From Desulfuromonadales bacterium (GTDB lineage Bacteria; Desulfobacterota; Desulfuromonadia; Desulfuromonadales; DASPGW01): a stretch of 32,382 nucleotides of DNA. This document shows positions 5,589 through 30,237 of the stretch, piece by piece. The DNA lies in contig DASPGW010000193.1 in NCBI GenBank assembly GCA_035620395.1, positions 1-32,382 on the forward strand. Reading direction: 5' to 3'. A program made the position numbers and the translations under genes. Numbering within the stretch: the first letter of the stretch is position 1; each line of letters begins with the position of its first letter. The notes under the pieces were generated by a model that ran no database searches, was not told the DNA's origin, and saw only the letters and a list, made by a program, of their open reading frames with translations.

Positions 5589-5620
5589 TTCGTGCTAGAA
5601 TATAAGATAAGCTGAGATGA

Positions 5621-5667
5621 AAAGCCGCTGGCCTCCGGGATTCGATTCCCGGCGCCAGCGGCTTTTT
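5621..5667 (+). terminator. intrinsic terminator after the alcohol dehydrogenase
   Basis: AAAGCCGCTGGC (5621-5632) pairs perfectly with GCCAGCGGCTTT (5654-5665), enclosing an inner hairpin CCGGGA/TCCCGG (5635-5640/5647-5652), and the stem runs into TTTTT. It lies 33 bp after the stop codon. Confidence 0.9.
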
Positions 5668-5729
5668 CACCTGGAAACAAACACGGTGCAGAAAGCCGAT
5701 CTGCAGTATCCCAGCGATTCGAGGTGGAA

Positions 5730-6632: not shown

Positions 6633-6634
6633 GC

Positions 6635-8026
6635 ATGGAGACCATCATCACCAGATTTGTCGCCGACCTGAGAAAGGAAGGGCTGCGCGTCTCCCCGGGA
6701 GAGAGCCTCGATGCAGTTTGCGCCCTGGCTTACGGCGGGCTCGAAGGGCGCGGTTCGGTACGCGCCCTGCTGCGTTTGACGCTGGTGAAGAATGTCCACG
6801 ATATCCCGCGCTTCAATAAGGTCTTTGACCGGTTCTTCAGAAAGTATCCGGAGGGGATGGGGGTCGATCCTGCCGATCTGCTGCATGAGGCCATCATCAG
6901 CATGGAAGGGGAAGAGATGCTCGGCACCAACCCGGAAATGGTCAATGAGAACATGTCCCTGGCGATGGTTGATGCCGGCCTGAGCCCCGAAGATCTGAAA
7001 GATCTGCAATCGCTCAAAGAGATCCCCCTGGACCAGCTTGACGGCTCGGAGATCGAGATTCGGCTGAAAGGTTACCAACGGGCGATGGAGGCTCCCAGGC
7101 CGTCGATGCGGATGCCGCAAAATCCGGTCACCATGGCCTTTAAACCGCCGGCGGGGCAGCAGCGTGACCTGACTTTTTCCCAGGAGGAACTTGATGCGAT
7201 GCAGGATGCCGTGTCCCGCATGATCCTGCGCCTGAAAAAGGATATCCGGCGCGTCAAAAACAAGGAGAATCGCGGCAAAATCCACGTCATCCGAACCATT
7301 CAGAAGAATTATCGCAACGGGATGGTCCCCTTTTTGCTGGAATTGCGCCGTAAGCGCAAACAGAAACCGCGCCTGGTTGTTCTTTGCGATGTCAGCTTTT
7401 CCGTCAGTCACGCCTCGCAGTTCATGCTGCTCCTGCTGCATACCCTGCATAATCGTTTGATGGATGTCCGCAGCTTCATCTTCAACGCGGAGTTGGCGGA
7501 AATCACCGAAATGCTCTCGAACTCCCCGATCAATACCATGATGGAAGTCATCGACAGCGGGGCGATCGTTAATCTGGACGACAACAGTGATTACGGCAAA
7601 GTTTTCCTGACCTTCAAAGAGAAATATCTCGAAAACCTGCGCGGCCGACCGGCGGTGATATTTCTCGGCGATGCCCGCAATAACTACAACAAGGCCAACG
7701 ACTGGGTGCTCGAGCAGGTTCGCGAGAAGGCCGGCTACATGCTCTGGTTGACTCCGGAGGATCGCTCCTTGTGGAAGAGGGGAGATTGCCTGATCGAAAC
7801 CTATGGCGCCTGGTGCGACAAGGTCGAGTTTGTCAAGAATGTCGAAGAGTTGAATGTGATTGTCGAGGACCTGTTTCGCAACATCTATCTGGAGGATGAG
7901 CACCGCTCCATGCGGTCGATCAACAAGGCCGAAGAAGATCAGGGATACGATTATCGCGATTATTACACGCGGGGCGGCAGCCGTTCGGAGCCAGGTTTTG
8001 ACCCGGAGGGTCGTAGTCACTGGTGA
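6635..8026 (+). CDS. VWA domain (CoxE-like) protein, MoxR partner
   Basis: This 463-residue soluble protein has a von Willebrand A domain in its C-terminal half. The metal-ion-dependent adhesion site is DVSFSVS (about residue 250, DxSxS), and FLGDARNN lies further on as the Asp-containing MIDAS loop. The helical N-terminal region fits the CoxE-like/DUF58-related family. With the MoxR ATPase immediately upstream (2-bp gap) it forms the usual ATPase/VWA pair that remodels a client protein. The C-terminal tail is Arg/Tyr-rich (YDYRDYYTRGG). No signal peptide or membrane helix is evident, so it should be cytoplasmic. The client is unknown. Confidence 0.88.
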   Translation: METIITRFVADLRKEGLRVSPGESLDAVCALAYGGLEGRGSVRALLRLTLVKNVHDIPRFNKVFDRFFRKYPEGMGVDPADLLHEAIISMEGEEMLGTNPEMVNENMSLAMVDAGLSPEDLKDLQSLKEIPLDQLDGSEIEIRLKGYQRAMEAPRPSMRMPQNPVTMAFKPPAGQQRDLTFSQEELDAMQDAVSRMILRLKKDIRRVKNKENRGKIHVIRTIQKNYRNGMVPFLLELRRKRKQKPRLVVLCDVSFSVSHASQFMLLLLHTLHNRLMDVRSFIFNAELAEITEMLSNSPINTMMEVIDSGAIVNLDDNSDYGKVFLTFKEKYLENLRGRPAVIFLGDARNNYNKANDWVLEQVREKAGYMLWLTPEDRSLWKRGDCLIETYGAWCDKVEFVKNVEELNVIVEDLFRNIYLEDEHRSMRSINKAEEDQGYDYRDYYTRGGSRSEPGFDPEGRSHW

Positions 8027-13166: not shown

Positions 13167-13280
13167 ATGGAAACGGAAAAAAATCAGGCAATCGAAGAAG
13201 CATGTAACGAAGAGCCCCGGATCCTGGAGGAAATTCAGGTCGAAGAGCTCGCAATCGACGGCATCTGCGGGGTGTACTGA
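13167..13280 (+). CDS. mftA: mycofactocin precursor peptide MftA
   Basis: This 37-residue peptide ends in EELAIDGICGVY, the hallmark C-terminus of MftA (IDG-x-CGVY). In the known pathway MftC oxidatively decarboxylates the last Tyr and cross-links it to the penultimate Val; the Val-Tyr-derived core is later released and becomes the redox cofactor mycofactocin. The acidic N-terminal part (METEKNQAIEEACNEE) is the leader recognised by MftB. An internal Cys at residue 13 is in addition to the conserved one in CGVY. The ATG follows AAAAGGAGAG with good spacing. mftB begins 1 bp after the stop. The identity is clear from the C-terminal motif and the neighbours. Confidence 0.96.
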   Translation: METEKNQAIEEACNEEPRILEEIQVEELAIDGICGVY

Positions 13281-13281
13281 G

Positions 13282-13539
13282 ATGGCGGCGGCAGGCATCC
13301 GGCTGCATCCCGCCTGCCGCGTCAGGCAAGAGGGGTTCGGCCTCCTGTTTTACGATTCCAGGGGGCCGCGCCTTCTCTTCGCCGAAACCGGCAGACTGCT
13401 TTCCACCGATTTCTTCGCCACCGTCCGGAGCCTGGACGACCTCCCTGCCGGGCTGTCGGAGCAGGAGCAGCGAATTTTGAAGAAATTTCTGTCGCAACTT
13501 CTGGAAAAGGGATTTCTCCGTGAGCAATCGATTTGTTGA
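13282..13539 (+). CDS. mftB: mycofactocin peptide chaperone MftB (PqqD-like)
   Basis: This 85-residue protein matches the small PqqD-like RiPP recognition element that binds the MftA leader and presents it to MftC. Visible family traits are the N-terminal VRQEGFGLLFYDSRGPRLLF beta-strand pair, SEQEQRILKKFLSQLLEKGFL as the recognition helices, and the position between mftA and mftC. It starts with ATG 1 bp after mftA, and its 3' end overlaps mftC by 20 bp, consistent with translational coupling. Confidence 0.93.
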   Translation: MAAAGIRLHPACRVRQEGFGLLFYDSRGPRLLFAETGRLLSTDFFATVRSLDDLPAGLSEQEQRILKKFLSQLLEKGFLREQSIC

Positions 13540-14560
13540 AAAGGGACTCCGCTCCCCCGTCAATCTGACCTGGGAAGTGACTTTCGCCTGCAACCTGCGT
13601 TGCCGCCATTGTCTGTCGGCTTCCGACGAGCCGGCGCCGGACGAAATGACGACCGGCGAAGCTCTGGACCTGGTGGAACAATTGCACCACGCCGGCGTCT
13701 TTCAAATCAATTTCGGCGGCGGCGAGCCTTTCCTGCGCCCCGATTTTGAAGAGATCCTGGCCGCCTGCCACGGTAAAGGGATCATGACCTGCATCTCCAC
13801 CAACGGCACCCTGCTCGACCCTGCACGGGTAGCCCGGCTGGCCGCGAGCCGGCTGGTGGCCATCCAGGTCAGCCTGGACGGGGCGAGCCGGGAGACCTGC
13901 GACGCCATCCGCGGCCAGGGGGTTTTCGACCGGGCCATCAAGGCCGTCGAGCTGTTGGCCGCCAGTTCCATCCCGACCAGTATCAATACGGTATTGACCG
14001 CCCAGAATGCCGGCGAAATCCCGGCGCTGCACGAACTGGCCCGTTCTCTCGGGGTATCGCTGCGGGTCAGCCGCTTCCGTCCGTCCGGGCGCGGGGCGGA
14101 CAACTGGGAAGATCTCCGGCCGACCCCGGCCCAGCTCCTGGCCTTCTCGGCCTGGCTGGCCGACAGCGGCGACGTGCGTACCGGCGACAGCTTCTTCTCG
14201 CTGACGACCCAGGAGCGCCAGGGCCTTGGGCTCAATCTTTGCGGCGCGGCCAAGCTCACCTGCTGCGTGGGCCCCACCGGCAACATGTATCCCTGCGCCT
14301 TTCTCCAGACCGACCGGTTCAAGGCAGGGTCGTTGCGCGACAACTCCTTCCAGGAGATCTGGGACGATTCGGAGATTTACGCCTCCTTCCGCAGTTTGAG
14401 AATCCACTCCTGCGAGGAGTGCCGGCGCTTCGACCAGTGCCACGGCGGCTGTCCGGCCGTCGCCTGGCACCTGAAGAACGATATCAACGGCGGCGACCCC
14501 GAGTGTCTGGAGCGCTGCGTGACCAGCATTGCCGACACCTCGCGGACGCAAGCGGCATAG
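13520..14560 (+). CDS. mftC: mycofactocin radical SAM maturase MftC
   Basis: This 346-residue radical SAM/SPASM enzyme has the SAM cluster motif CNLRCRHC (residues about 24-31), FGGGEPFLRPDF as the SAM-binding GGEP motif, and a SPASM domain with CGAAKLTCC, MYPC, C-x2-C-x5-C-x3-C (CEECRRFDQCHGGC) and a final CLERC for auxiliary clusters. In the known pathway it decarboxylates the MftA C-terminal Tyr and forms the Val-Tyr cross-link. The start is GTG (reads SNRFVEKG), preceded by GGAAAAGGG inside mftB. Its length and place after mftAB fit MftC well. It differs clearly from the radical SAM protein at 2682. Confidence 0.95.
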   Translation: MSNRFVEKGLRSPVNLTWEVTFACNLRCRHCLSASDEPAPDEMTTGEALDLVEQLHHAGVFQINFGGGEPFLRPDFEEILAACHGKGIMTCISTNGTLLDPARVARLAASRLVAIQVSLDGASRETCDAIRGQGVFDRAIKAVELLAASSIPTSINTVLTAQNAGEIPALHELARSLGVSLRVSRFRPSGRGADNWEDLRPTPAQLLAFSAWLADSGDVRTGDSFFSLTTQERQGLGLNLCGAAKLTCCVGPTGNMYPCAFLQTDRFKAGSLRDNSFQEIWDDSEIYASFRSLRIHSCEECRRFDQCHGGCPAVAWHLKNDINGGDPECLERCVTSIADTSRTQAA

Positions 14561-14623: not shown

Positions 14624-16585
14624 ATGATGTTCCAATACCTGTTTTCGCCCCTCAAGATCGGCACGGTCGAGGTGAAGAACCGCATATCCTTCCAGCCGCA
14701 CCTGACCAATCTGGCGGTGGACAATCTTCCCAGCGAACGCCAGATGTACTACTGGGGCGAGCGGGCCAAAGGGGGCGCCGGCCTCATCATCACCGAAGAG
14801 ATGAGTGTGCACCCCACGGACATGGCTTACGACAAGCTGATCGACGTCTATCATTCCGAGGTTATCCCCGGCTTCAAGAAGATCACCGATTACGTCCATC
14901 AGTTCGACTCCAAAATCTTCGCCCAGCTCAACCACAACGGCCAGCAGTGCGACGGCAGCAACTCCAGACTGCCGGTCTGGGCTCCCTCGCCGATGCCCGA
15001 CGTCCTTTTCCGCGAAACCCCCAAGGAGATGGAACCCGAGGACATCGAAGAGGTGGCCCGCTACTTCGCCAAGAGCGCCATTCACGTGCGGGAGGGGGGC
15101 TTCGACGGCATCGAGCTGCAGTTCGGCCACTCCAGCCTCGCCCGGCAGTTCCTCTCCCCCCTGACCAACTTCCGCTCGGACGAGTACGGCGGCAGCCTGG
15201 AAAACCGGATGCGGGCGCCCCTGAAGTTTATCTCCGCGGTGCGCAAGGCGGCGGGCAAAGACTTTACGGTCGGCATCCGGATGTGCGCCGACGAGATGAT
15301 CCCGGGCGGGCTCGACCTGGGCCAGGTCCAGGAGATCTGCGCCCGCTTCGAGGCGAGCGGCCTCATCGACTTCATGGATCTCTCCATCGCCACCTTCTAC
15401 AACCTCTACCTGGTCGAAGGCTCCATGCATACCCCGCTCGGCTATACCATTCCGCTGGCGGCCGGCATCCGGGAGAAGATCAAGCTGCCCGTCTTCTGCA
15501 CCGGCCGGATCAACGACCCGGTCATGGCCGAGAAAGTCCTCGCCAATGGCCAGGCCGACATGATCGGCATGTGCCGCGGCCTGATCTGCGACCCCTTCAT
15601 GCCGAAGAAGGCGTTCGAGGGGCGGCTGGACGACATCCGCTACTGTGTGGCTGACAACCAGGGGTGCATCGGCCGCATCGGGATGAACAAGACCCTCGGC
15701 TGCATCCAGAATCCGGCCATCGGGCGGGAGAAGGAGTGGGGTGAAGGGACCCTCGAAAAGGCGGCGGTAAAGAAGAAGGTGACGATCGTCGGCGGCGGCC
15801 CGGGCGGCATGTGGGCGGCGAAGATGGCCGGCCGCCGCGGCCACCAGGTGACCCTCTACGACCGCAACGAAACCCTCGGCGGCCAGGTGCTGACCGCCAT
15901 GAAAGGGGCGGGGCGGGACGAATTCGGTGTCATCATCCGCAACGAGAAGGGGCAGGTGGAAAAGACCGGCGCTAACGTCAAGCTGGGTGTCGAAGTGACC
16001 ACCGAACAGGTGCTGGCGGAAAAGCCGGACGTGGTGATCATCGCTACCGGCAGCGTCCCCAAGGAGCATCCGGTCGGCGGGGCCGACGGCCCGGCGGTCT
16101 GGAATGTCTGGCAGGTGCTGAACGGCGAGGCGCAGTTGGGGGAAAAGGTCTGCCTGATCGACTATGACGGCCACCACCGGGCCACCGCCACGGCCGAGTA
16201 CCTGGCCAACCTGGGGAAAACGGTGCACATCATCACCTCCAGCCTCTTCATCGGCGCCGAACTGGGGCCGACCCAGGACCTCTACCTGACCAGGCAGCGG
16301 CTCCTGCAGAAGGGGGCCACTTTCACCCCGGATATCGCCGTGATGGAAGTTGCGGGCGAAGCCGGCGCCAAAACTGTCAAGGGGTTCAACGTCTATTCGA
16401 ACGTCTGGGATGAGTGGGGGCCGTTCGACACCATCGTGCTTGCCATGGGGCAGCGCGTGGAGGACGCCCTCTACATGAGCCTGAAGGGGAAGGTGAAGGA
16501 GCTCTACCGGATCGGCGACAGCGTCGCCCCGCGCAAGGTCGACATGGCCATCTGGGAAGGGCACCGGATCGGGAGGGAGATCTGA
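14624..16585 (+). CDS. OYE/FadH-family flavin oxidoreductase, mycofactocin-associated
   Basis: This 653-residue protein has the architecture of 2,4-dienoyl-CoA reductase FadH / trimethylamine dehydrogenase: an N-terminal FMN TIM barrel (about 1-340; FLSPLTNFRSDEYGGSLENR), a short Fe-S segment, then FAD and NAD(P)-binding folds (VTIVGGGPGGMWAA; later VCLIDYDGHH). The Fe-S segment has C341, D344, C348 and C360 in the exact C-x2-C-x3-C-x11-C spacing of FadH, with the second Cys replaced by Asp. The barrel motif HxxHGYL is changed to QFGHSSL, so dienoyl-CoA reductase chemistry is doubtful. OYE-type proteins are known companions of mycofactocin genes (TIGRFAM lists mycofactocin FadH/OYE families). 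The following EtfA, FixC, FixX and EtfB genes suggest it moves electrons between mycofactocin and an ETF. The ATG-ATG start has CAGGAG upstream. The stop overlaps the next ATG. Confidence 0.9.
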   Translation: MMFQYLFSPLKIGTVEVKNRISFQPHLTNLAVDNLPSERQMYYWGERAKGGAGLIITEEMSVHPTDMAYDKLIDVYHSEVIPGFKKITDYVHQFDSKIFAQLNHNGQQCDGSNSRLPVWAPSPMPDVLFRETPKEMEPEDIEEVARYFAKSAIHVREGGFDGIELQFGHSSLARQFLSPLTNFRSDEYGGSLENRMRAPLKFISAVRKAAGKDFTVGIRMCADEMIPGGLDLGQVQEICARFEASGLIDFMDLSIATFYNLYLVEGSMHTPLGYTIPLAAGIREKIKLPVFCTGRINDPVMAEKVLANGQADMIGMCRGLICDPFMPKKAFEGRLDDIRYCVADNQGCIGRIGMNKTLGCIQNPAIGREKEWGEGTLEKAAVKKKVTIVGGGPGGMWAAKMAGRRGHQVTLYDRNETLGGQVLTAMKGAGRDEFGVIIRNEKGQVEKTGANVKLGVEVTTEQVLAEKPDVVIIATGSVPKEHPVGGADGPAVWNVWQVLNGEAQLGEKVCLIDYDGHHRATATAEYLANLGKTVHIITSSLFIGAELGPTQDLYLTRQRLLQKGATFTPDIAVMEVAGEAGAKTVKGFNVYSNVWDEWGPFDTIVLAMGQRVEDALYMSLKGKVKELYRIGDSVAPRKVDMAIWEGHRIGREI

Positions 16586-17580
16586 TGGCCGGCAAAATCC
16601 TCGTTTTTGTCGACCTGCCCGACGGCGAGCTCGACGAGACCGGGCGGGGTCTGCTCTCCTACGGGTCGCGCCTGGCCGGCATTCTCGGCTCCCCCTGGGA
16701 AGTCGTCACCCCCATCGTTTGCAGCGGCGAACAGATGGCCGGGTTCGGAGCCTACGGCGTGCCGGCGATCACCCGCGTCGACGGCGGCAGTCTCCTCGAT
16801 ACCCCGGCGCTTCTCGGCCAAACCCTGGCCGCCCTGGCGGCGGCGAATGGGGCGACTCTCTTTGTTCTGCCCCACAATGCCCTGGGCGCGACCCTGGCTC
16901 CGGTGATTGCCGCGACCCTCGATGCCGCCATTCTCACCGAAATAGTCACCGCCAGCCACGATGCCGACGGCCTGCGGATTGCCCGGCAGGCCCTGGGCGG
17001 ACGGGTAGCGGAGACGAAGGTGTGGGACGGCTCCCGTCCCCTCGTCGTCACCGTTCCGACCCGTTGCCTGAGCCAGGTGCTCATGCCGACCGTCCGCCCC
17101 AGCACGCCGGCGGTGGAAACCTGGCGTCCCGCCGCCATGCCGGCCGAGGCTGCGGCGCGGGTTACCGGCCGCATTCCGCCCGATCCCCAGACCGTCGACC
17201 TCACCGAGGCGGAAGTCATCTTCAGCGCCGGCAAGGGGTGCGACGCGGTGACCTTCGACATGCTCAAGGAACTTTGCCGACTGCTCAACGTCTCCTTCGG
17301 CGTCACCCGGCCCGTGTACGACCTGGGGTGGACCGGCTTCGAGCGGATGGTCGGACAGACCGGCCGTACCGTCACCCCCCGGTTTTACCTGGCCCTCGGC
17401 ATCTCCGGTTCCATGCACCATGTGGGGGGGATCAAGGACTCCCGGCGGATCGTGGCGGTCAACAACGATGCCAAGGCCCCCATCTTTCCCAACGCCGACG
17501 AGGGGTTCGTCGCCGACCTGAAGGAGGTGCTGCCGCACCTGCTGGCGCGGGCAAAGTCGGCCATCGGAGGTGCGCCATGA
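16585..17580 (+). CDS. electron transfer flavoprotein alpha subunit (EtfA/FixB-like)
   Basis: This 331-residue protein has the C-terminal EtfA FAD-binding domain: a YDLGW element, MVGQTGRTVTP, LGISGSMHHVGG (family usual GISGAxQH), VNNDAKAPIFPNAD and a final ADLKEVLPHL. The N-terminal domain is a weaker ETF fold. ETF alpha/beta dimers pass electrons between dehydrogenases and a quinone oxidoreductase, and FixAB types may bifurcate. The ATG overlaps the OYE stop (ATGA), so the two are translationally coupled, and fixC overlaps its end in the same way. Its partner beta subunit is at 19243, separated by fixC and fixX. Confidence 0.93.
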   Translation: MAGKILVFVDLPDGELDETGRGLLSYGSRLAGILGSPWEVVTPIVCSGEQMAGFGAYGVPAITRVDGGSLLDTPALLGQTLAALAAANGATLFVLPHNALGATLAPVIAATLDAAILTEIVTASHDADGLRIARQALGGRVAETKVWDGSRPLVVTVPTRCLSQVLMPTVRPSTPAVETWRPAAMPAEAAARVTGRIPPDPQTVDLTEAEVIFSAGKGCDAVTFDMLKELCRLLNVSFGVTRPVYDLGWTGFERMVGQTGRTVTPRFYLALGISGSMHHVGGIKDSRRIVAVNNDAKAPIFPNADEGFVADLKEVLPHLLARAKSAIGGAP

Positions 17581-18872
17581 GCAAGTCGTATCAGGCAATC
17601 GTCGTCGGGGCCGGGCCGGCCGGATCCTCCGCAGCCCTGACCATGGCCAGGGCCGGGCTGGAGGTGGCGCTGGTCGAGCGGGGCACCTTCCCCGGCGAAA
17701 AGAACATGTTCGGCGGAGTCCTGCACCGGCTCCCCGCCCTGGAGGAGGTCTTCCCCGACTTTTGGGATCGGGCGCCGCTGGAGCGGCACATCGTCAAGAA
17801 GGGCGTCACCTTCATGACCGGCGACTCCAGCTTCAGCACGCTGATCGAAGCGGGGAACTTCGACCGCACTCCCTACAACGGCTACACCGTTTTCCGGCCG
17901 CGTTTCGACCGCTGGCTCGCCGATGAGGCGGTCAAGGCCGGCGCCACCCTCATCACCAGCGCCACGGTGGAAGATGTGGTCACCCGGGGCGGCCGGGTCG
18001 CCGGTGTCAGCATCCTCGACCGGGGAGAGTTGGCCGCTCCGGTGGTGGTCGCCGCCGACGGCGTCCTCTCCTTCACCGCCCTCAAGGCGGGGCTGCGGCG
18101 GCCGACCTTCGACCCGGCGCAGATGGCGGTCGGCATCAAGGCGCTGATCGACATGCCGCGGGAAGTGATCGACGACCGCTTCGGTCTGGTCCGCGATCAG
18201 GGTTACGCCGGCGAGTTCGTCGGCTGCACCGGCGGCGTTCGGGGGGGCGGCTTCCTCTACACCAACTACGACTCCCTCTCCATTGGCCTGGTCTTCCACC
18301 TGGCCAGCCTGCGGGTAAGCGGCAAGACCCCCTACGACCTGCTCAACGAATTTCTCGAGCAGCCCCAGGTCGCCAAGCTGGTTCGCGGCGGGCGGCTTCA
18401 GGAGTATTCGGCCCACCTGATTCCCGAGGGAGGATTTGACATGATCCCCGAGCTGGTCGGCGACGGTATTCTCGTCACCGGCGATGCCGCCGCCCTCTGC
18501 AATGCCACCGGGGTCAATCTGGAGGGGATCAACCTGGCGACCCAGTCGGGTGTCCTGGCCGGCCAGGCGGTAATCGCCGCCCAACAGGCGGGGGACTTCA
18601 GCCGCAAGGGGCTGGAGGAGTACCGGCGGTTGATGAACGACAGCTATGTGATCAAGGACCTCAAGCTGTACCGCAAGGCGCCGCACATGCTGCACAACGA
18701 CCGCATCTACAACGAGTATCCGGAGCTCATAACGAGCGTCATGGAACAGATCTACAGCATAGACGGAGCTCCCAAGGAGAGCTTGTCCAAGCTGTTCCTG
18801 AAGACGGCCCGGGAGAAGGTGGGCCTGGCGAACATCCTGTCCGACGCCTTCGGCGCCTGGAGAGCTGTATGA
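17577..18872 (+). CDS. FixC-like ETF:quinone oxidoreductase flavoprotein
   Basis: This 431-residue FAD protein starts with a dinucleotide-binding motif (AIVVGAGPAGSSAALTMARA). The second FAD motif GILVTGDAAALCNATGVNLE includes the conserved GD. It lacks the C-terminal ferredoxin domain of full-length ETF-QO, and that domain is encoded separately by the next gene, exactly the FixC/FixX split. FixC accepts electrons from FixAB and passes them toward quinone. No transmembrane helix is evident; membrane attachment would be peripheral. It overlaps both neighbours by 4 bp (ATGA). Confidence 0.93.
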   Translation: MSKSYQAIVVGAGPAGSSAALTMARAGLEVALVERGTFPGEKNMFGGVLHRLPALEEVFPDFWDRAPLERHIVKKGVTFMTGDSSFSTLIEAGNFDRTPYNGYTVFRPRFDRWLADEAVKAGATLITSATVEDVVTRGGRVAGVSILDRGELAAPVVVAADGVLSFTALKAGLRRPTFDPAQMAVGIKALIDMPREVIDDRFGLVRDQGYAGEFVGCTGGVRGGGFLYTNYDSLSIGLVFHLASLRVSGKTPYDLLNEFLEQPQVAKLVRGGRLQEYSAHLIPEGGFDMIPELVGDGILVTGDAAALCNATGVNLEGINLATQSGVLAGQAVIAAQQAGDFSRKGLEEYRRLMNDSYVIKDLKLYRKAPHMLHNDRIYNEYPELITSVMEQIYSIDGAPKESLSKLFLKTAREKVGLANILSDAFGAWRAV

Positions 18873-19147
18873 ACATCGACGAGATCTTCGACTTCACCAG
18901 CTTCAGCATCGACCGTGAACCGCACATCGTCCTCGACACCCAGGTCTGCGTCGGCTGCGACAACCGCGGCTGCGTCAACTCCTGTCCGGCCCGCTGCTAC
19001 ACCTGGAGCGAGGCGGAGCAGAAGATGACCTTCGTCTACGACGGCTGCCTCGAATGCGGCACCTGCTATGTCGTCTGCCACCGCAAGGCCTTCACCCGCT
19101 GGCGCTATCCGCGGGGGGGCTTCGGGGTGGCGTATAGGATGACCTGA
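18869..19147 (+). CDS. FixX-like ferredoxin
   Basis: This 92-residue protein has CVGCDNRGCVNSCPARC followed by CLECGTCYVVC and the family C-terminus WRYPRGGFGVAYRM. The second group (C-x2-C-x2-C-x3-C) is a classical 4Fe-4S motif, and the first group supplies more potential ligands. FixX is the ferredoxin partner of FixC, carrying electrons toward quinone. It is coupled to fixC by a 4-bp overlap. Confidence 0.93.
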   Translation: MNIDEIFDFTSFSIDREPHIVLDTQVCVGCDNRGCVNSCPARCYTWSEAEQKMTFVYDGCLECGTCYVVCHRKAFTRWRYPRGGFGVAYRMT

Positions 19148-19172
19148 AAAACAAGGTTGAAGGCTGAATTAT

Positions 19173-19216
19173 GAAGGATGAAAGCAGGCCTGCTTTTTTT
19201 CATTCATTCATCCTTC
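19173..19216 (+). repeat. inverted repeat with T-run between fixX and fixA
   Basis: GAAGGATGAA (19173-19182) is the reverse complement of TTCATCCTTC (19207-19216). The core AGCAGGCCTGCT (19183-19194) is self-complementary and runs into seven Ts (to 19200), so it could act as a weak terminator or pause site. A further copy TTCATCCTT sits at 19221-19229, and the left side is flanked by a similar GAAGGCTGAA, giving the look of a small dispersed repeat. It interrupts an otherwise tightly coupled operon. Confidence 0.6.
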
Positions 19217-19242
19217 CGACTTCATCCTTAAGGAGTAAAAAC

Positions 19243-20136
19243 ATGCCCAACAATAACCTCGATATCCTCGTCCTCCTCCGTGAGACCGCCGATCCCCGTC
19301 CCCCCGCCGGCATCCTCACGCGGGGCGCCGGCATCAGCGAGCGGGGGCTGCGGCGTCTGCCGAATCCGGCGGACCTGGCGGCCCTGGAGGAGGCCCTCTG
19401 TCTCAAGGACACGCTCGGTGCCCGGGTGACGGTGGTTGCCGTCGGTCCCGCCCGGCTCGACGACACCCTGCGGCTCGCTTTCGCCATGGGGGTGGACCGG
19501 GGGATCCGGTTCTGGGACCACGGCCTGGATGGGGGCGATGCCCTGGTCGATGCGCGCATCCTCGCCCGGATCATGACCATTCTCTCTCCTACCCTTGTCT
19601 TCACCGGCAACCGGCTGACGGACCGGGGAGACGACCCGGCGCCGGCCCTGGCCGCTGCGGTGCTGGGCATGCCGTGCATCGCCGCCACCGTCTCGCTCAC
19701 GCTCAAGCAGGCAGGTGTCGAAGCGCTGCGCAAGGCGGACCGGGGCGCCCGGCAGTCGGTTGCGGCGCCGTTCCCCTGCACGGTCCTCTTCGAGGAGGAG
19801 AAAGTGCCACGATACCCCTCCATCGAGGCGGTCATCAAATCCCTGCTGGCGCCCGTCGAGGAATGGGTGCTGGCGGACCTGGGTCTCCCCTTCTGGGAGG
19901 TGGGCGCCACGGGTGCCAGTCTCACGACGGCGGAGTTCGGTCTTCCCCGCCCCGACCCGGTCCGGGTCGTGACTCCGGATCCGCAGCTACCCGCCTTCGA
20001 GCGGATACTCTCCCTGCTCTCCGGCGGGATCAAGGCCCGCGAGGGGAGGATGCACTCTCTCTCGGCCGAGGAGACGGCCGCGGGGCTCTGGAAGATTTTC
20101 TGCGAGGAGGGTCTGGCCCCGGGAGGAACCTCATGA
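19243..20136 (+). CDS. electron transfer flavoprotein beta subunit (EtfB/FixA-like)
   Basis: This 297-residue protein begins MPNNNLDILVLLRETADPRP, with the EtfB pattern of a conserved N-terminal strand, NPADLAALEEAL (NxxDxxAxEEAL) and VTVVAVGPARLDDTLRLAFAMG. FTGNRLTDRGDDPAPALAA is the counterpart of the nucleotide-binding GxxxxDxxxxQxGP region, with the usual Q/GP partly altered. It is longer than common EtfB (about 255 residues). It would pair with the EtfA-like protein at 16585. ATG follows TTAAGGAGT. It overlaps mftF by 4 bp. Whether it is a bifurcating type cannot be decided by eye. Confidence 0.88.
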   Translation: MPNNNLDILVLLRETADPRPPAGILTRGAGISERGLRRLPNPADLAALEEALCLKDTLGARVTVVAVGPARLDDTLRLAFAMGVDRGIRFWDHGLDGGDALVDARILARIMTILSPTLVFTGNRLTDRGDDPAPALAAAVLGMPCIAATVSLTLKQAGVEALRKADRGARQSVAAPFPCTVLFEEEKVPRYPSIEAVIKSLLAPVEEWVLADLGLPFWEVGATGASLTTAEFGLPRPDPVRVVTPDPQLPAFERILSLLSGGIKAREGRMHSLSAEETAAGLWKIFCEEGLAPGGTS

Positions 20137-21566
20137 CCTACCGTCTGGCAGAGCACGTGGAACTGGTGGAGCGGGAGGGGGCAAGCTACCTGGTGGCCAA
20201 GACCCCTCTCTGCGCTCTGCGCCTGAACGGTTCGCTGGCGGAGCTCGTCAGGCGCGGGCTGGCCGGGCCGCTGACGCCCGCCTCCGCCGCTGAAACCAAG
20301 GTCCTCGAGCAGTTGGTCGCCAAAGGGTTCGTGGAACGGATCCGCAGCCTGGCCGAACAGCCGGCGGCACTTCCCACCGTCAGTGTCGTCATCCCGGTCA
20401 AGGACCGGGCGGAGGAGCTCGCCCGCTGCCTCGCTTCCCTCGCCCGGCTCGACTATCCGCAGGAGAAGCTCCAGGTCATCGTCGTCGACGACGGCAGCCG
20501 CGACGAATCGGCGCTGGTGGCCCGCCAGGCCGGCGCGCTCGTCATCCCCTCGGGGGGGACGGGGCGAGGGCCGGCGGCGGCGCGCAACGTCGGCGCATCC
20601 GTCGCGACCGGGGAGGTCCTCGCCTTCATCGATTCCGACTGCAGCGCCTCGGCGGGGTGGCTCGCCGAGTTGATCCCCGCCTTTGCCGATCCGCTCATGG
20701 TGGCCGTCGGCGGGCGGGTGGACGGCATGTGTACCGCTTCCGCCGTCGACCGCTACGAGGCGGTCATGTCGAGCCTCACCCTCGGTTCGCGGGAGCGTAC
20801 GGGCAGCGGCGGAAACGACACCTTCTACCTGCCCAGCTGCAACCTGCTGGTGCGGCGGCCAGCCTTTCTGGCGGCCCGCGGCTTCGACGACAGCATGCAC
20901 GTGGGGGAGGATGTCGACCTGACCTGGCGCCTGCGGGACGCCGGCTGGACCATCGCCTATCTGCCGGTGGGAGGGGTTCTGCACGAGCACCGCAGCACAG
21001 TCCGCTCCTTCATGTCCCGCCGTTTCGACTACGGCACCTCCGAGGGGCAGCTTCAGGTCCTGCATCCCCAGCGCCGCAAGCGGCTGGTCATCCCCCCCTT
21101 GCTGGCCCTCGTGCTGGCTCTTTGTCTTCTGGCTCCGTTGGCGGCGTGGTGGCCGCTGCTGCCGGCCGCAGGACTGCTCGCAGCCGACGCGGTAGTGGTC
21201 CGGCTGCGGATTGCCCGCCGGGGACTCCCCATCGGCCTGCCGGCCTTGCTCGCCGGGCGCCTGCGGGCCCTAGGCAGCCTGGTCTACTATCTCTGCTACC
21301 ACTTGGTGCGCTACTACGCCGCCGTACTCATCGCCATCGCGCTGGCCCTTCCCCCGTTCTGGGCGGTGTTCGTCGGTGCTCTGGGGGTTGCCGCCGGCGT
21401 CGATTATGCGGTGAAAAAGCCGCGTCTCTCCTTCGTCCGTTTCGCCGGCATCTATCTGCTGGAGCAGGTTGCCTACGGAGCCGGCGTCTTCTGGGGGTGC
21501 CTGCGGCGGAAAACCTTTGCCTCCTACCGGGTGCTCATCCTCCGGCAGGCGGAGCTTTCGGTTTAA
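20133..21566 (+). CDS. mftF: mycofactocin glycosyltransferase MftF
   Basis: This 477-residue protein has a PqqD-like N-terminal segment of about 80 residues (LVEREGASYLVAKTPLCALR). A GT2 catalytic domain follows with VSVVIPVKDRAEELARCL, IVVDDGSRDES, IDSDCSAS (DxD-like) and GEDVDLTWRLRDAGW (the ED and Q/RxxRW-like region). A C-terminal hydrophobic region has several membrane helices (about 305-450). MftF adds beta-1,4-glucose units to mycofactocin in mycobacteria. It is the last gene of the tightly coupled block, and its ATG overlaps the EtfB stop. The frame stays open much further upstream, but the 20133 start is fixed by coupling and by the domain boundary. The TAA is followed closely by the AOR riboswitch, with no terminator seen between. 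Confidence 0.9.
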   Translation: MTYRLAEHVELVEREGASYLVAKTPLCALRLNGSLAELVRRGLAGPLTPASAAETKVLEQLVAKGFVERIRSLAEQPAALPTVSVVIPVKDRAEELARCLASLARLDYPQEKLQVIVVDDGSRDESALVARQAGALVIPSGGTGRGPAAARNVGASVATGEVLAFIDSDCSASAGWLAELIPAFADPLMVAVGGRVDGMCTASAVDRYEAVMSSLTLGSRERTGSGGNDTFYLPSCNLLVRRPAFLAARGFDDSMHVGEDVDLTWRLRDAGWTIAYLPVGGVLHEHRSTVRSFMSRRFDYGTSEGQLQVLHPQRRKRLVIPPLLALVLALCLLAPLAAWWPLLPAAGLLAADAVVVRLRIARRGLPIGLPALLAGRLRALGSLVYYLCYHLVRYYAAVLIAIALALPPFWAVFVGALGVAAGVDYAVKKPRLSFVRFAGIYLLEQVAYGAGVFWGCLRRKTFASYRVLILRQAELSV

Positions 21567-21718: not shown

Positions 21719-23455
21719 ATGGACAAGATTGCCAGAATCAACATGGGCGCGGCAGGCGGCCCGAAGGTGACGGTTGAGGACGTCGGTGAATATGCCGGAC
21801 TCGGCGGCCGGGCACTGACCTCCCTGCTCATCGCCAAGGAAGTACACCCCCTCTGCCATGCGCTGGGCGCCGAGAACAAGCTGGTCATCGCCCCCGGCAT
21901 GCTGAGCGGTACCGCCGGCGCCATGACCGGCCGGCTGTCGGTGGGGTGCAAGAGCCCGCTGACCGGCACCATCAAGGAGTCCAACGCCGGCGGCCAGGCG
22001 GCGCAGGTTATGGCACGGATAGGCTATGCCGCCATCGTCCTCGAGGGGAAACCGGAAGGCGACGACCTCTACAAGATCTACGTCAACAAGGATGGCATCC
22101 ACGTCATCGTCGACAACAGCCTGAAGGACCTCGACAACTACCCGGTCATCGAGAAGCTGCGCAAGGAGTACGGTGACAAGGTCGCCTACATGTCGATCGG
22201 CACCGCCGGCGAGCGCAAGCTGCTGGCGGCCTCCATCGCCTGCACCGACCCGGAACTGCGGCCGACCCGGCACTGCGGCCGTGGCGGCGTGGGCGCCGTC
22301 ATGGGCGCCAAGCGGGTCAAGGCGATCATCCTCGACGACGCCGGGATGAAGATGCGCCCGCCGAAAGACCCGGAGAAGTACCGGGACGCCAACCGCAAGT
22401 TCGTCGAGGGGCTGCGCAAGCACCCGGTCACCGGCGAGGGCCTGCCCGCCTACGGCACCAACATCCTGACCAACGTGCTGAACGAGGCGGGCGGCTACCC
22501 CAGCTACAACTTCAAGCAGGGACAATTCGCCGGCTCTTCCAATATCAGTGGCGAGTCCCAGGCGGCGCTGGAAGTCAAGCGCGGCGGCAGCGCCACCCAC
22601 GGCTGCCATCGCGGCTGCGTCATCCAGTGCTCCGGCATCTACAACGACAAGGACGGCCACTACCTGACCAAGCAGCCGGAGTACGAGACGGTCTGGTCGC
22701 ATGGCGGCCACTGCGGCATCGACGACCTCGACACCATCGCCCACCTCGACTTCCTGGACGACAACATCGGCCTCGATACCATCGAAATGGGGGTCACCAT
22801 CGGCGTCGCCATGGACGCGGGAATTATCAAGTTCGGCGACCGCGAGGGGGCCATCCGCCTGATGGAGGAAGTCGGCAAGGGGACGCCGCTCGGCCGCATC
22901 CTCGGCAGCGGCGCCGCGGTGACCGGCAAGGTGTTCGGCGTCGAGCGGGTACCGGTGGTCAAGGACCAGGCCCTGCCCGCCTACGACCCGCGCGCCATCC
23001 AGGGGATCGGCGTCACCTACGCCACCACCACCATGGGGGCCGACCATACCGCTGGCTACGCCATCGCCACCAACATCCTCAAGGTCGGCGGCGACGTCGA
23101 TCCGCTGAAGACCGAAGGCCAGGTCGAGCTCTCCCGCAACCTGCAGATCGCCACCGCCGCCATCGACTCGACCGGCATGTGCCTCTTCATCGCCTTCGCC
23201 ATTATGGACCAGCCGGAGACTTTCCAGGCGCTGCTCGACATGCTCGGTTCCTTCTACGGCATCACCATGACCGGCGACGACGTGGTGGCGCTGGGCAAGC
23301 GGGTTCTCGCCGCAGAGCGGGACTTCAACACCCGCGCCGGTTTCACCAAGCATCACGACCGGCTCCCCCGTTTCTTCTACAACGAGCCGATTGCGCCCCA
23401 CAACGTCACGTTCATGATGAAGGATGAGGAGCTGGACGAGGTCTTCAACTTCTAG
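21719..23455 (+). CDS. aldehyde:ferredoxin oxidoreductase (AOR family, tungsten-type)
   Basis: This 578-residue AOR-family enzyme has the N-terminal pterin-binding domain (GLGGRALTSLL, PGMLSGTAGAMTGRLSVGCKSPLTGT, SNAGGQ). The 4Fe-4S ligands are C296, C300 and C304 (CHRGCVIQC) plus C488 (STGMCLF). The spacing of the first pair is C-x3-C rather than the C-x2-C of Pyrococcus AOR. It would oxidise aldehydes to acids, or reduce acids, with ferredoxin, using a tungsten bis-pterin. It sits behind a Moco/Tuco riboswitch and upstream of MoaD, E1, MoeA and TupA genes. ATG 21719 follows GGAG; a strong terminator follows the stop. Coupling to the alcohol dehydrogenase (alcohol to aldehyde to acid) is inferred from context. 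Confidence 0.95.
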   Translation: MDKIARINMGAAGGPKVTVEDVGEYAGLGGRALTSLLIAKEVHPLCHALGAENKLVIAPGMLSGTAGAMTGRLSVGCKSPLTGTIKESNAGGQAAQVMARIGYAAIVLEGKPEGDDLYKIYVNKDGIHVIVDNSLKDLDNYPVIEKLRKEYGDKVAYMSIGTAGERKLLAASIACTDPELRPTRHCGRGGVGAVMGAKRVKAIILDDAGMKMRPPKDPEKYRDANRKFVEGLRKHPVTGEGLPAYGTNILTNVLNEAGGYPSYNFKQGQFAGSSNISGESQAALEVKRGGSATHGCHRGCVIQCSGIYNDKDGHYLTKQPEYETVWSHGGHCGIDDLDTIAHLDFLDDNIGLDTIEMGVTIGVAMDAGIIKFGDREGAIRLMEEVGKGTPLGRILGSGAAVTGKVFGVERVPVVKDQALPAYDPRAIQGIGVTYATTTMGADHTAGYAIATNILKVGGDVDPLKTEGQVELSRNLQIATAAIDSTGMCLFIAFAIMDQPETFQALLDMLGSFYGITMTGDDVVALGKRVLAAERDFNTRAGFTKHHDRLPRFFYNEPIAPHNVTFMMKDEELDEVFNF

Positions 23456-23504
23456 TGGGGGATAAGGTGTAACAGCCCCTGAAATCCCGAACATTGCTGA
23501 ATCA

Positions 23505-23532
23505 GGCGGGGCATCTCGCCCCGCCTTTTTTT
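23505..23532 (+). terminator. strong intrinsic terminator after AOR
   Basis: GGCGGGGC (23505-23512), loop ATCTC, GCCCCGCC (23518-23525), then seven Ts. It ends the AOR transcript 50 bp after the stop and 22 bp before the next gene, so the downstream genes need read-through or a promoter of their own. Confidence 0.93.
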
Positions 23533-23553
23533 ACAGGCCGATCAGGAGGGAGC

Positions 23554-23775
23554 ATGCTGCTGGAACAGTTGGTGGAAAATGCCGGGCAGCCCCCGGAGTA
23601 TGACTGGGACGCCTACTACCGCTGGCTGTTCAGCGTGCTTGCGGGCCGGGAAGTCACCGGCTACAGTTTCTGGCAATGCAAACAATGCCTCACGGTCAAT
23701 GTCGTCTACCTGCCGGCACGCTACGGAACCTGCCGCGGCTGCGCACTCATTCATCTGCCGAACGAGATGTGTTAA
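23554..23775 (+). CDS. small zinc-ribbon-like protein, function unknown
   Basis: This 73-residue protein begins MLLEQLVENAGQPPEYDWD. Its C-terminal half has two Cys pairs, CKQC and CRGC, about 22 residues apart, the layout of a small zinc ribbon or rubredoxin-like knuckle. The ATG is preceded by AGGAGGGAG, an excellent ribosome-binding site, which supports it as a real gene. I do not recognise the family. Lying between AOR and the cofactor genes, it may be an accessory to the AOR, but nothing in the sequence proves that. Confidence 0.7.
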   Translation: MLLEQLVENAGQPPEYDWDAYYRWLFSVLAGREVTGYSFWQCKQCLTVNVVYLPARYGTCRGCALIHLPNEMC

Positions 23776-23821
23776 AGTAGGGTTGTCTTCCTTGCGGCGC
23801 TAGAAACCGGGAAAGAAAATC

Positions 23822-24457
23822 ATGGCGCAGGAGAACCGCCGGCAGTCCACGGCAAGGCTTTCGCTTACCTTTGCGGATGGAATGCCGGAACATCTCAGCT
23901 GCTTTTTTTCGCTTCTGCAGCAAGGGTTCTGCATCAGGGTGCAGGTCGGCTGCGGTATCCGGGAACTGCTCTGCAGCCAGTTCGGCATCGACCCGGACTA
24001 CCTGAAGCAGCGGATCACGACCATTTTTCTCAACGGCAAGCCGGTTGACGATACGGAAGCCAGCCGGATCGCCGAGGGTGCCACGCTGGCTCTTTCCGCC
24101 GCCATGCCGGGCCTGGTCGGCGCCACCATGCGGCGTGGCGGCTTCTATGCCGCCATGCGCGGTGCCATCACCCACCATGAATCGGCAGAAGGTGCTGAGG
24201 AAAAATACGGCACTATCAGGATCAAGTTGTTCAACCTGCTGATGGCCGAATTGGGGCCGGGTTTTCTGCGGCAGGGGATTGTCGTCCCGACTCCCGCGTT
24301 GGCGAATTTTCTGGCCGCGCAAGCTCCCGATTTCTGGGAGGGATGGAGCGAAATACGGCTGAACGGTAAACCGGTCGCAGCCGGGATTTTGCAAACCGGG
24401 GCATGGACTGCCCCGAGCGAGGAATTGACAGAGCTTTGTGTCCTCTTCGAGGAGTGA
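23822..24457 (+). CDS. unrecognised protein, possible duplicated beta-grasp (MoaD/ThiS-like) fold
   Basis: This 211-residue protein has no family I can name. Two halves seem related. Residues about 38-100 contain VGCGIRELL, IFLNGKPVDD, EGATLALS and end LVGATMRRGG. Residues about 125-211 contain IVVPTPALANFL, IRLNGKPVAA and LTELCVLFEE. The order (hydrophobic strand, xxLL helix, NGKPV strand, G-D/A-T-LAL strand) resembles ubiquitin-like sulphur carriers. Its stop is 3 bp before a genuine MoaD-like gene that is followed by an E1 gene. It may therefore be an AOR-specific or cofactor-assembly accessory. The ribosome-binding site is weak (GGGAAAG). Confidence 0.75.
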   Translation: MAQENRRQSTARLSLTFADGMPEHLSCFFSLLQQGFCIRVQVGCGIRELLCSQFGIDPDYLKQRITTIFLNGKPVDDTEASRIAEGATLALSAAMPGLVGATMRRGGFYAAMRGAITHHESAEGAEEKYGTIRIKLFNLLMAELGPGFLRQGIVVPTPALANFLAAQAPDFWEGWSEIRLNGKPVAAGILQTGAWTAPSEELTELCVLFEE

Positions 24458-24460
24458 AAC

Positions 24461-24685
24461 ATGCAGGTTACGGTCAAACTGTTCGCGAATTTCCGTCACG
24501 GACGCTTCAACATCGAAGTCCGCCAATATCAGCCGGGCACCACCGTCGGGCAGGTCGTCGAAGAGATCGGCATCCCGAAGGAGGAGCTGGGCATCCTGCT
24601 CGTCAACAGCCGGCATGTCGGTTTGGACCGTGAATTGCACGACGGGGATACACTTGCCCTGTTCCCCCTGGTTGGAGGCGGCTGA
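24461..24685 (+). CDS. MoaD/ThiS-family sulphur carrier protein
   Basis: This 74-residue ubiquitin-like protein starts MQVTVKLFANFR, has TTVGQVVEEIGIP and LLVNSRHVG, and ends DGDTLALFPLVGGG with the required C-terminal Gly-Gly. Such proteins are adenylated at the C-terminus by an E1 (ThiF/MoeB type) and carry thiocarboxylate sulphur for the molybdopterin dithiolene. It lies 3 bp after the unknown gene and 1 bp before the E1 gene. In this setting it probably serves molybdenum or tungsten pterin synthesis, although a catalytic MoaE partner is not in the window. Confidence 0.92.
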   Translation: MQVTVKLFANFRHGRFNIEVRQYQPGTTVGQVVEEIGIPKEELGILLVNSRHVGLDRELHDGDTLALFPLVGGG

Positions 24686-24686
24686 G

Positions 24687-25505
24687 ATGGAGGAACTCCG
24701 AACCTTTCTCGAAAAGCATGCAGACGGCGATCTGCTCGCCTGGCGGCATCAGGTGGCGGCCGCGAAGCACTTCGGCCTGAGCCTGGCCGAAGTGGAAACG
24801 GCGATCCTCGAAGCCGGGCTGCTGCCGGCACGCTACCAGCGCAACCGCCGGATGCTCTCGACGCTGCAGCAGCTCCAGCTGTTCCGCAGCCGGGTCGCCG
24901 TGATCGGCTGCGGCGGGCTGGGTGGTTACATTCTGGAACAGCTGGCCCGTCTCGGAGTGGGACATATTGTCGCAATTGATCCCGATGTCTTCGAGGAGCA
25001 CAACCTCAACCGCCAACTGCTCTCCTCGCCCGCCATGCTGGGCCGCGCCAAGGCGGAGCTGGCGGCGCAGCGGGTGGCGGAAATCAATCCGGCGGTGACC
25101 CTCAATCCGGTGCGTGAAGCTTTTTCCCGGGAAAATGGCCGCGAGCTGCTTTCCGGGCTGGACTGCATCGTCGACGCGGTGGATAATGTAACGGCGCGCC
25201 TGGAGCTGGAAGCGGTCTGCAGCGAACTGAATGTTCCCCTGGTGCACGGGGCCATCGCCGGCTGGTATGGCCACGTCGCCACCATCTATCCGGGCGAAAA
25301 CACCATGCAGTTGATCTATCGTCACTGGACGGGGGGCAAGGGGGTCGAGCAGCAATTGGGCAACCCCTCCTTTACGCCGGCCGTAGCCGCCAGTCTCGAG
25401 GTCGCTGAGGTGTGCAAAGTTCTGCTCGGGCAGGGGGCGCTGTTGCGCAACCGGAAGCTTGCCTTCAATCTGCTCGATATGGAGGTCGAGGAAATCCCTT
25501 TGTAG
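24687..25505 (+). CDS. ThiF/MoeB-family adenylyltransferase (E1-like)
   Basis: This 272-residue protein has an ATP-binding Rossmann fold with VAVIGCGGLGGYILEQLARLGVG, then the family sequence DPDVFEEHNLNRQLL with the Asp and Arg of the active site, and DCIVDAVDNVTARLELE. An extra N-terminal helical segment of about 60 residues precedes the E1 core. The two CxxC zinc pairs of MoeB/ThiF and the usual catalytic Cys region are not evident, as in several HesA/MoeB-like proteins tied to tungsten enzymes. It would activate the MoaD-like protein encoded 1 bp upstream. The gene ends just before the second riboswitch. Confidence 0.92.
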   Translation: MEELRTFLEKHADGDLLAWRHQVAAAKHFGLSLAEVETAILEAGLLPARYQRNRRMLSTLQQLQLFRSRVAVIGCGGLGGYILEQLARLGVGHIVAIDPDVFEEHNLNRQLLSSPAMLGRAKAELAAQRVAEINPAVTLNPVREAFSRENGRELLSGLDCIVDAVDNVTARLELEAVCSELNVPLVHGAIAGWYGHVATIYPGENTMQLIYRHWTGGKGVEQQLGNPSFTPAVAASLEVAEVCKVLLGQGALLRNRKLAFNLLDMEVEEIPL

Positions 25506-26957: not shown

Positions 26958-28198
26958 TGAGCCAGGGGTTTCTCAAGACCTTGAGCCGTCCGGAATTCCA
27001 GGCCCTGTTGCAGACCTTTTCCTGCACCGGGACGGAAATCGTACCCTTTCACCGGGCCCGCAACCGGGTGCTGGCCGAGGACCTGCTCTCCCCGGAAGAC
27101 CTGCCGACCGGCCGTCGCTCCTCGATGGATGGCTACGCACTGCAGGCCGCCGACACCTTCGGCGCCGGCGAGAGCAGCCCCGCCTACCTCGACTGCAGCC
27201 GCACGCTGGAGGTCAACGAGTTTCCCGACTTCGCCCTGGTGCCGGGCCAATGCGCCTGGATCCCCACCGGAGGTTTTCTGCCGGCGGGGGCCGACAGCGT
27301 GGTGATGGTGGAATACACCCAGGAGATCGGCGCCGGTACCATCGAGGTCCGGCAGAGCGTGGCACCGGGGGAAAACGTCATGGAGCGGGGCGAAGACGCC
27401 GCCGCGGGCCAACTGGTTCTGACCGCCGGCAGCCGTCTGCGCACCCAGGAGGTGGGACTGCTGGCCGCCCTCGGCCTGGCCGAGGTGAGGGTGCACCGGC
27501 GCCCCCGGGTCGCCGTCCTCTCCACCGGCGACGAGTTGGTGCCGGTCGAGGGAACGCCCGCGCCGGGCCGCATCCGCGACGTCAACTCTCACACCGTCGC
27601 CTGCCTCGTCGAAGGGGCCGGGGGCGAAGTGCTCCCCCGCGGCATCGTCGGCGACGACCTGGAGCGACTGGCGCAGGCGCTGCAGGTTGCCTTGGAGCAA
27701 AGCGACGTGGTCTTTCTCTCCGGCGGCAGCTCCAAGGGGACGCGCGATCATACCATCGCCGCCCTGGAGGCACTCGCCGGAGCGGAGATCCTCTGCCACG
27801 GGGTGCGCATCAGCCCCGGCAAACCGACCATCCTGGCCCGGGTGGGAGAAAAAGCGGTGGTGGGACTCCCTGGCCAGGTCGGCTCGGCCCAGGTGGTGAT
27901 GACCGTGCTGGGGCAGCCCTTCCTCCGCCACCTCGCCGGCGACCGCGAGGCCTTTGCCGAGCGGCTGCGGCCGCTGCACCGGGCGCGCCTCGCCCGCAAC
28001 CTCGAATCGCGGCAGGGGAGGGAGGACTTCGTCCGGGTCCGCCTGGAGCCGGCCGCAGGCGGCCTCCCTTTGGCCCAACCGGTCCTCGGCAAGTCGGGGC
28101 TGCTGCGCACCCTGCTGCAGAGCGACGGCCTTCTCGTCATTCCGGCCGATGTGGAGGGCTTCCGGGAGGGGCAGGAAGTTGACGTCTGGATTCTCTGA
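26957..28198 (+). CDS. molybdopterin molybdenumtransferase MoeA, paralog 2
   Basis: This 413-residue MoeA paralog has RRSSMDGYALQA, ILPAGADSVVMVE-like GGFLPAGADSVVMVE, STGDELVP, SGGSSKGTRDHT and ISPGKPT, the last giving an intact PGKP loop unlike paralog 1. It is translationally coupled to paralog 1 (TGATG). Its loop sequences (SSKGTRD, SPGKPT, GLPGQVGSA) are closer to those of the third paralog than to the first. In organisms with tungsten enzymes, duplicate MoeA proteins have been proposed to separate molybdate from tungstate insertion. Confidence 0.93.
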   Translation: MSQGFLKTLSRPEFQALLQTFSCTGTEIVPFHRARNRVLAEDLLSPEDLPTGRRSSMDGYALQAADTFGAGESSPAYLDCSRTLEVNEFPDFALVPGQCAWIPTGGFLPAGADSVVMVEYTQEIGAGTIEVRQSVAPGENVMERGEDAAAGQLVLTAGSRLRTQEVGLLAALGLAEVRVHRRPRVAVLSTGDELVPVEGTPAPGRIRDVNSHTVACLVEGAGGEVLPRGIVGDDLERLAQALQVALEQSDVVFLSGGSSKGTRDHTIAALEALAGAEILCHGVRISPGKPTILARVGEKAVVGLPGQVGSAQVVMTVLGQPFLRHLAGDREAFAERLRPLHRARLARNLESRQGREDFVRVRLEPAAGGLPLAQPVLGKSGLLRTLLQSDGLLVIPADVEGFREGQEVDVWIL

Positions 28199-28211
28199 GG
28201 AAAGGACGACC

Positions 28212-30152: not shown

Positions 30153-30237
30153 ACTTTTTCTTTCTCTTCCTCTATAGTTCCGGGCAGATCCTCATTTTGC
30201 CCGCGGAACCCTGCCGATTCTTGCAAGGAAGCCCGAT

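Follow-up and report, generated by a model that had tools for sequence, protein, structure and literature searches.

How does a bacterium make mycofactocin when its biosynthetic cluster contains no mftD? The biosynthesis of this cofactor has been described via MftD, whose step is reported to be aerobic; mycofactocin clusters are nevertheless found in anaerobic lineages. This question is raised by a DNA stretch of 32,382 nucleotides from a Geobacter-like bacterium of the Desulfuromonadales (contig DASPGW010000193.1; the entire stretch is referred to here as the window), the genome of which carries the designation G000 in our whole-genome searches. Five genes lie between mftC and mftF in its mycofactocin cluster and encode an old yellow enzyme (OYE)-type oxidoreductase, both subunits of an electron-transfer flavoprotein (ETF), and FixC- and FixX-type proteins; the gene order is mftA-mftB-mftC-(OYE2-etfA-fixC-fixX-etfB)-mftF, all on the plus strand. 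We consider it likely that this cassette replaces MftD, the premycofactocin synthase, with OYE2 oxidizing the aminopyrrolidinone AHDP and the electrons passing via EtfAB and FixCX to menaquinone.

The M. smegmatis pathway leads from the cyclised core formed by MftC to AHDP, which MftE sets free, and on to premycofactocin (PMFT), the product of AHDP deamination by MftD; AHDP accumulates and mycofactocin is lost in cells without mftD, and a lack of mftE is tolerated in part (PMC7491314). As M. smegmatis makes no mycofactocin without MftD, producers devoid of MftD need a substitute. MftD is usual but not universal in mycofactocin clusters (PMC3023750), and a search of the complete G000 genome recovered no MftD homologue better than an E-value of 7e-4.

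The evidence that connects the cassette to this step comes from a sample of 396 genomes of Actinomycetota, 73 of which possess MftC. MftD scored above its cut-off in 57 of these MftC-positive genomes, and the OYE2 cassette was present in exactly the other 16; no genome had both and none had neither (Fisher p=1.9e-16). The scores left a clear margin: MftD had 570 bits or more where it was called present and did not exceed 303 bits in cassette genomes, and OYE2 had at least 764 bits when present (14 proteins above the cut-off, plus two more at 787 and 764 bits) and at most 562 bits in MftD genomes. The family mft_etfA was found above its cut-off in 12 genomes, all of them among the 16 with the cassette (0/57 in MftD genomes), and the other four encode an EtfA beside OYE2. 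Two streptomycetes illustrate the exchange: Streptomyces NBC_00080 has the classical mftA-B-C-D-E-F cluster, and Streptomyces NBC_00557 has mftA-B-C-(FAD-dependent oxidoreductase)-OYE2-etfA-fixC-fixX-etfB-(short-chain dehydrogenase/reductase)-mftF-mftE and lacks mftD. In MftD clusters mftD is located directly 3' of mftC, the very place that the OYE gene holds in cassette clusters.

Our first idea had been that the cassette stands in for MftG (TIGR03970), the mycofactocinol dehydrogenase, which also delivers electrons from mycofactocin to the respiratory chain; it was dropped when the data from Actinomycetota revealed complementarity with MftD. MftG, a member of the GMC family, scored above its cut-off in 18 of the 73 genomes, all of them MftD-positive, and 39 further MftD-positive genomes had neither MftG nor the cassette; the alternation is therefore with MftD. 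These 39 genomes argue against the view that the cassette is a mycofactocinol:quinone oxidoreductase, an MftG counterpart that merely re-oxidizes the finished cofactor. That view draws on the finding that MftG exceeds its cut-off in no cassette genome (0/45 and, in Actinomycetota, 0/16), on the open question of how about 25% of the MftC genomes, those without MftG, re-oxidize the cofactor (PMC11778925), and on the ability of PMFT, at -255 mV, to reduce menaquinone (PMC11778925). However, if re-oxidation were the sole function, cassette genomes would be left without a known enzyme for the MftD step, as G000 with its missing MftD homologue exemplifies, and we regard this alternative as unlikely. 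A dual role, in which the cassette performs the MftD step and mycofactocinol is re-oxidized by the same OYE2-ETF-FixCX path, is possible.

The one-for-one exchange of MftD and cassette recurs outside the sample of Actinomycetota. Eight of the 12 plasmids with mftC carry the cassette (six from Streptomyces and one each from the haloarchaeal genera Haloterrigena and Halolamina) and four carry mftD; the OYE proteins of Haloterrigena and Halolamina share about 38% identity with OYE2 of the window and score about 620 bits with TIGR03997, below the cut-off. In a tree of 93 MftC proteins, for which the reading frame was chosen by alignment, the cassette/MftD label changes at least 12 times, and seven of these changes are forced by supported branches. 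Eight independent pairs can be drawn on this tree; seven are opposite and none the same (p=0.016), and one showed no difference, as expected from the genome G046 discussed below. Among the Desulfuromonadia relatives, MftD exceeds its cut-off only in G037, G129 and G046. G037 retains the synteny of the window (AAA-VWA-HK-mftA-B-C-F-AOR-MoaD-ThiF-MoeA) without the cassette, so that mftC is followed by mftF, and encodes MftD about 18 kb away; the cassette is likewise absent from G129, where MftD is on the same contig. Loci outside the samples of Actinomycetota, relatives and plasmids were fetched through OYE2 and thus attest to breadth and are not independent statistics.

Genes for the precursor, its maturation and the glycosyltransferase are all found at the locus; mftA, mftB, mftC and mftF, which together identify a mycofactocin biosynthesis cluster, are present in the window. 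The precursor peptide encoded by mftA (13167..13280, plus strand; direct translation METEKNQAIEEACNEEPRILEEIQVEELAIDGICGVY) ends in IDGICGVY, and its core is kept in both cassette and MftD loci. It is followed by mftB (13282..13539; TIGR03967, 64 bits, cut-off 33), the gene for the radical SAM maturase MftC (13520..14560; TIGR03962, 351 bits, cut-off 265), the cassette, and mftF for the glycosyltransferase (20133..21566; TIGR03965, 380 bits, cut-off 280). The first cassette gene encodes OYE2 (14624..16585; TIGR03997, 975 bits, cut-off 793), an FMN/Fe-S/FAD oxidoreductase with the architecture of trimethylamine dehydrogenase (TMADH) and dienoyl-CoA reductase (DCR); MftB, MftC, OYE2 and MftF thus pass the curated cut-offs of NCBIfam. 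EtfA (16585..17580; PF00766 and PF01012) and EtfB (19243..20136) have mft_etfA (NF038209; 136 of 240 bits) and mft_etfB (TIGR04503; 78 of 200 bits) as their best families, both below the curated cut-off. FixC (17577..18872) is an ETF:quinone oxidoreductase-type flavoprotein that matches T. maritima FixC over its full length (7koe_C, E 1.4e-80), and FixX (18869..19147) is a FixX-type two-cluster ferredoxin, with eight Cys residues in two clusters and a score for PRK15449 FixX of 61 bits, below the cut-off of 166. All of these genes are present on one strand, and the order OYE-EtfA-FixC-FixX-EtfB between mftC and mftF that an earlier note had read from this DNA is borne out. Three of the four ATGA overlaps it had listed stand as well (EtfA-FixC at 17577, FixC-FixX at 18869 and EtfB-MftF at 20133); at the remaining junction, OYE-EtfA at 16585, the sequence is TGATG and the overlap 1 nt. 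The most likely start of etfB is at 19243, just downstream of an AAGGAG, leaving a gap of 95 nt to fixX; a second gap, of 63 nt, separates mftC from OYE2. Consensus scans detected no plus-strand consensus promoter, and terminator-like sites were not above chance.

Scanning GTDB genomes for OYE2 relatives yielded 79 loci, and the order mftC, OYE2, etfA, fixC, fixX, etfB, mftF on one strand was found in every one of the 34 loci in which all seven genes were readable. The overlaps recur in related loci beyond chance: OYE2-etfA by 1 nt in 37/47, and by 4 nt etfA-fixC in 47/48, fixC-fixX in 40/48 and etfB-mftF in 36/44. The arrangement is recognisable in Chloroflexota, Defluviicoccus, Actinomycetota and haloarchaea, so that the order is indeed conserved elsewhere; in Chloroflexota, Defluviicoccus and Frankiaceae it occurs at roughly 30-55% identity and often with a second OYE. 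Among 195 relatives of the source organism, MftC and OYE2 each exceeded their cut-offs in 32 genomes, 29 of which were shared; in the three genomes with OYE2 alone the locus is truncated, in keeping with a position at a contig end. In one myxococcotal mft cluster (L099, 12946-15629), a multihaem cytochrome c and a CCG/Fer4 protein replace FixC-FixX between etfA and etfB, and the OYE and EtfAB are retained. Two cassette-type mft clusters on Streptomyces megaplasmids (L126, L127) have a type I polyketide synthase and further biosynthetic genes as neighbours.

The four electron-transfer gene families are those of the FixABCX/EtfABCX systems (T. maritima 7koe, Rhizobium fixABCX), and the best solved relative of FixC belongs to the bifurcating complex of T. 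maritima, as would suit a module of the ordinary kind, for nitrogen fixation, bifurcation or fatty acids, present in the operon by chance. The ETF proteins point elsewhere. In the EtfB tree, the 21 mft sequences are set apart from all others by a branch with 99/97 support that was recovered in 100% of the bootstraps; on the other side are the proteins of A. fermentans and C. difficile, CarD, and FixA of Rhizobium, together with the ETFs of Paracoccus and Sphingobium and the genome's own further ETFs (C42 and C280). EtfB of the window hence lies outside the bifurcating/nif clade and does not group with the beta-oxidation ETF of the Paracoccus/Sphingobium type. The unrooted EtfA tree unites 16 ordinary ETFs at 94/92 without any mft member, whereas the mft EtfA proteins are split and do not form one clade, with some EtfAs from other OYE clusters in between. 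A motif alignment showed that the FAD motif of EtfA is kept and that none of the mft EtfB proteins examined has the bifurcating loop IDGDTAQVG; the window's EtfB has TDRGDDPAPA in its place. The cassette also differs from FixABCX in its order, etfA-fixC-fixX-etfB behind OYE2. Given, in addition, the order and overlaps conserved inside mft clusters and the joint absence of these genes with OYE2 in G037 and G129, an ordinary module is disfavoured and very improbable. The proposal in the earlier note that the module serves mycofactocin, and not fatty acid oxidation or nitrogen fixation, is supported by the separate lineage, the missing motif and the conserved order; a placement of the Etf proteins inside ordinary beta-oxidation ETFs, which would have spoken against it, was seen in neither tree. 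That note had reached mycofactocin use from gene position alone, and the probable function, a replacement of MftD, emerged only from the distribution data.

OYE2 has full-length relatives of solved structure in 2-naphthoyl-CoA reductase (NCR), DCR, TMADH, histamine dehydrogenase and HisD. TMADH passes electrons from its amine substrate to an ETF, and the closest solved structure to EtfB is that of the TMADH ETF (1o94). OYE2 lacks the GxGxxG loop of the NAD(P)H site, and the corresponding stretch resembles that of histamine dehydrogenase; it shares this feature and its full-length architecture with the trimethylamine and histamine dehydrogenases (1o94, 3k30, 6de6). E59, Q166, H169 and E265 are conserved in OYE2, and we take them, from the alignment and the TMADH numbering, to lie at or near TMADH Tyr60, Tyr169, His172 and Asp267. 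The 4Fe-4S site (residues 341-360) reads C-x2-D-x3-C-x11-C; among 53 readable close copies, 36 have Cys as the second ligand, and the other 17 have Asp and hence CxxD in place of CxxC. The Cys-to-Asp change had been entertained as a diagnostic mark and was dropped since it occurs in only 17 of these 53 copies.

The substrate, reaction and electron path that we infer for the cassette are as follows. MftC together with MftB would make the cyclised Val-Tyr core, and a peptidase would free the amine AHDP. OYE2, in place of the lactate-oxidase-like MftD, would oxidize AHDP at its C-N bond, yielding the alpha-keto amide of premycofactocin, and the electrons would leave OYE2 via its Fe-S cluster for EtfAB and reach menaquinone through FixC-FixX. 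We infer this path because of the shared architecture of OYE2 and TMADH, the proximity of EtfB to the TMADH ETF, the lack of the GxGxxG loop, the match of FixC, and the alternative electron exit in L099. MftD (TIGR03966; FMN-dependent lactate dehydrogenase family PF01070) and the cassette have in common a place after mftC in the same operon, a flavin enzyme and, by our reading, the step itself; they differ in that one gene faces five, PF01070 faces PF00724, and a step described as aerobic (PMC8406134) faces a built-in exit from ETF to quinone. A more far-reaching version, which we put forward only tentatively, is that bacteria and haloarchaea possess a second, unrelated premycofactocin synthase that needs no oxygen as acceptor, a TMADH-like amine dehydrogenase coupled to the quinone pool that also re-oxidizes mycofactocinol, so that the tasks of MftD and MftG would both fall to one cassette.

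Several observations weigh against a replacement of MftD by the cassette. In both sequence and fold, OYE2 comes slightly closer to the 2-naphthoyl-CoA and dienoyl-CoA reductases than to the amine dehydrogenases; a fold search with its predicted model (pLDDT 82) returned the known full-length family and did not tell the amine dehydrogenases apart from the enoyl reductases. TMADH Cys30, Tyr60 and Tyr169 are not found in OYE2, which has Leu, Glu and Gln instead. MftE is unlinked to the cluster and below its cut-off in Desulfuromonadia. The cassette is present in Streptomyces and haloarchaea too, and lack of oxygen can therefore not be the whole reason for it. Finally, G046 has both MftD and the cassette; its two MftD genes (L163, L164) reside on foreign-looking contigs (GC 0.53, versus 0.63 on the cassette contig) of an assembly listed at 7% contamination, and are likely, though not proven, to be contamination. 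MftE was also tried as a third marker and gave nothing clear (below-cut-off creatininases, unlinked in most Desulfuromonadia).

The family to which OYE2 belongs is rich in ene-reductases and CoA-ester reductases, and cassette organisms might accordingly make a different cofactor, with OYE2 performing another oxidation or reduction on the MftC product and the mature molecule not being mycofactocin; to our knowledge, the product of no cassette organism is known. However, the CGVY core of MftA is the same in both classes, MftB, MftC and MftF are shared, the swap is seen between close MftC relatives, and the cluster has neighbours of the mycofactocin-dehydrogenase type, namely proteins resembling MadB and MadC and an iron alcohol dehydrogenase akin to NDMA-dependent methanol dehydrogenase. 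We therefore hold a different cofactor to be quite improbable.

These neighbours lie upstream of the cluster (window positions 4383-8026) as an iron-type alcohol dehydrogenase (Fe-ADH), a MadB-like AAA ATPase and a MadC-like VWA protein, a trio that is found near mft clusters in many Geobacter relatives as well as in Chloroflexota and Defluviicoccus. The Fe-ADH has NDMA-dependent methanol dehydrogenase and ErcA among its relatives, and all three proteins score below their family cut-offs; an Fe-ADH beside mftC was observed in Geobacter uraniireducens by Haft et al. (PMC3023750). Further upstream (2682-3782), a second radical SAM protein is 52% identical to one beside the mft cluster of Anaeromyxobacter oryzae (L089). 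Downstream, 152 nt 3' of mftF and on the same strand, follows a gene predicted to encode an aldehyde:ferredoxin oxidoreductase-type enzyme (AOR), which is kept there in many relatives, as is the entire set of AOR, a small protein (23554-23775), MoaD-like and ThiF-like genes (21719-25505); the AOR, MoaD-like and ThiF-like genes are retained in the cassette-free G037. MoeA-type genes and a TupA-like protein are also encoded downstream; in the region 28038-31149, a MoeA-type protein carries an additional domain at its C-terminus, and the second protein that follows has only this domain in common with it (PRK14498 matches). From this gene content, a mycofactocin-dependent alcohol oxidation island that would pass the aldehyde to a tungsten enzyme appears plausible.

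The association as such had been noticed by the NCBI curators, who already named some of these proteins "mycofactocin-associated". The families mft_etfA, mft_etfB and mycofact_OYE_1/2 (TIGR03996/TIGR03997) tie the proteins to mycofactocin and are used on the Streptomyces plasmid clusters, but their names carry no function, and the window's EtfA and EtfB fall under their thresholds. In the open-licence literature that links mycofactocin to ETF, to old yellow enzyme or to EtfA/FixC, we found no paper that gives the cassette this role or states the exchange with MftD. What is new is that a non-orthologous replacement probably carries out one step of a known pathway. If correct, an ETF-linked replacement would explain mycofactocin clusters in anaerobes, and clusters without MftD would be predicted to make active cofactor. 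Organisms without MftG would gain a named candidate for the way in which they drain electrons from mycofactocin, and the unexplained family names mft_etfA/B and mycofact_OYE_2 would become a testable enzyme system.

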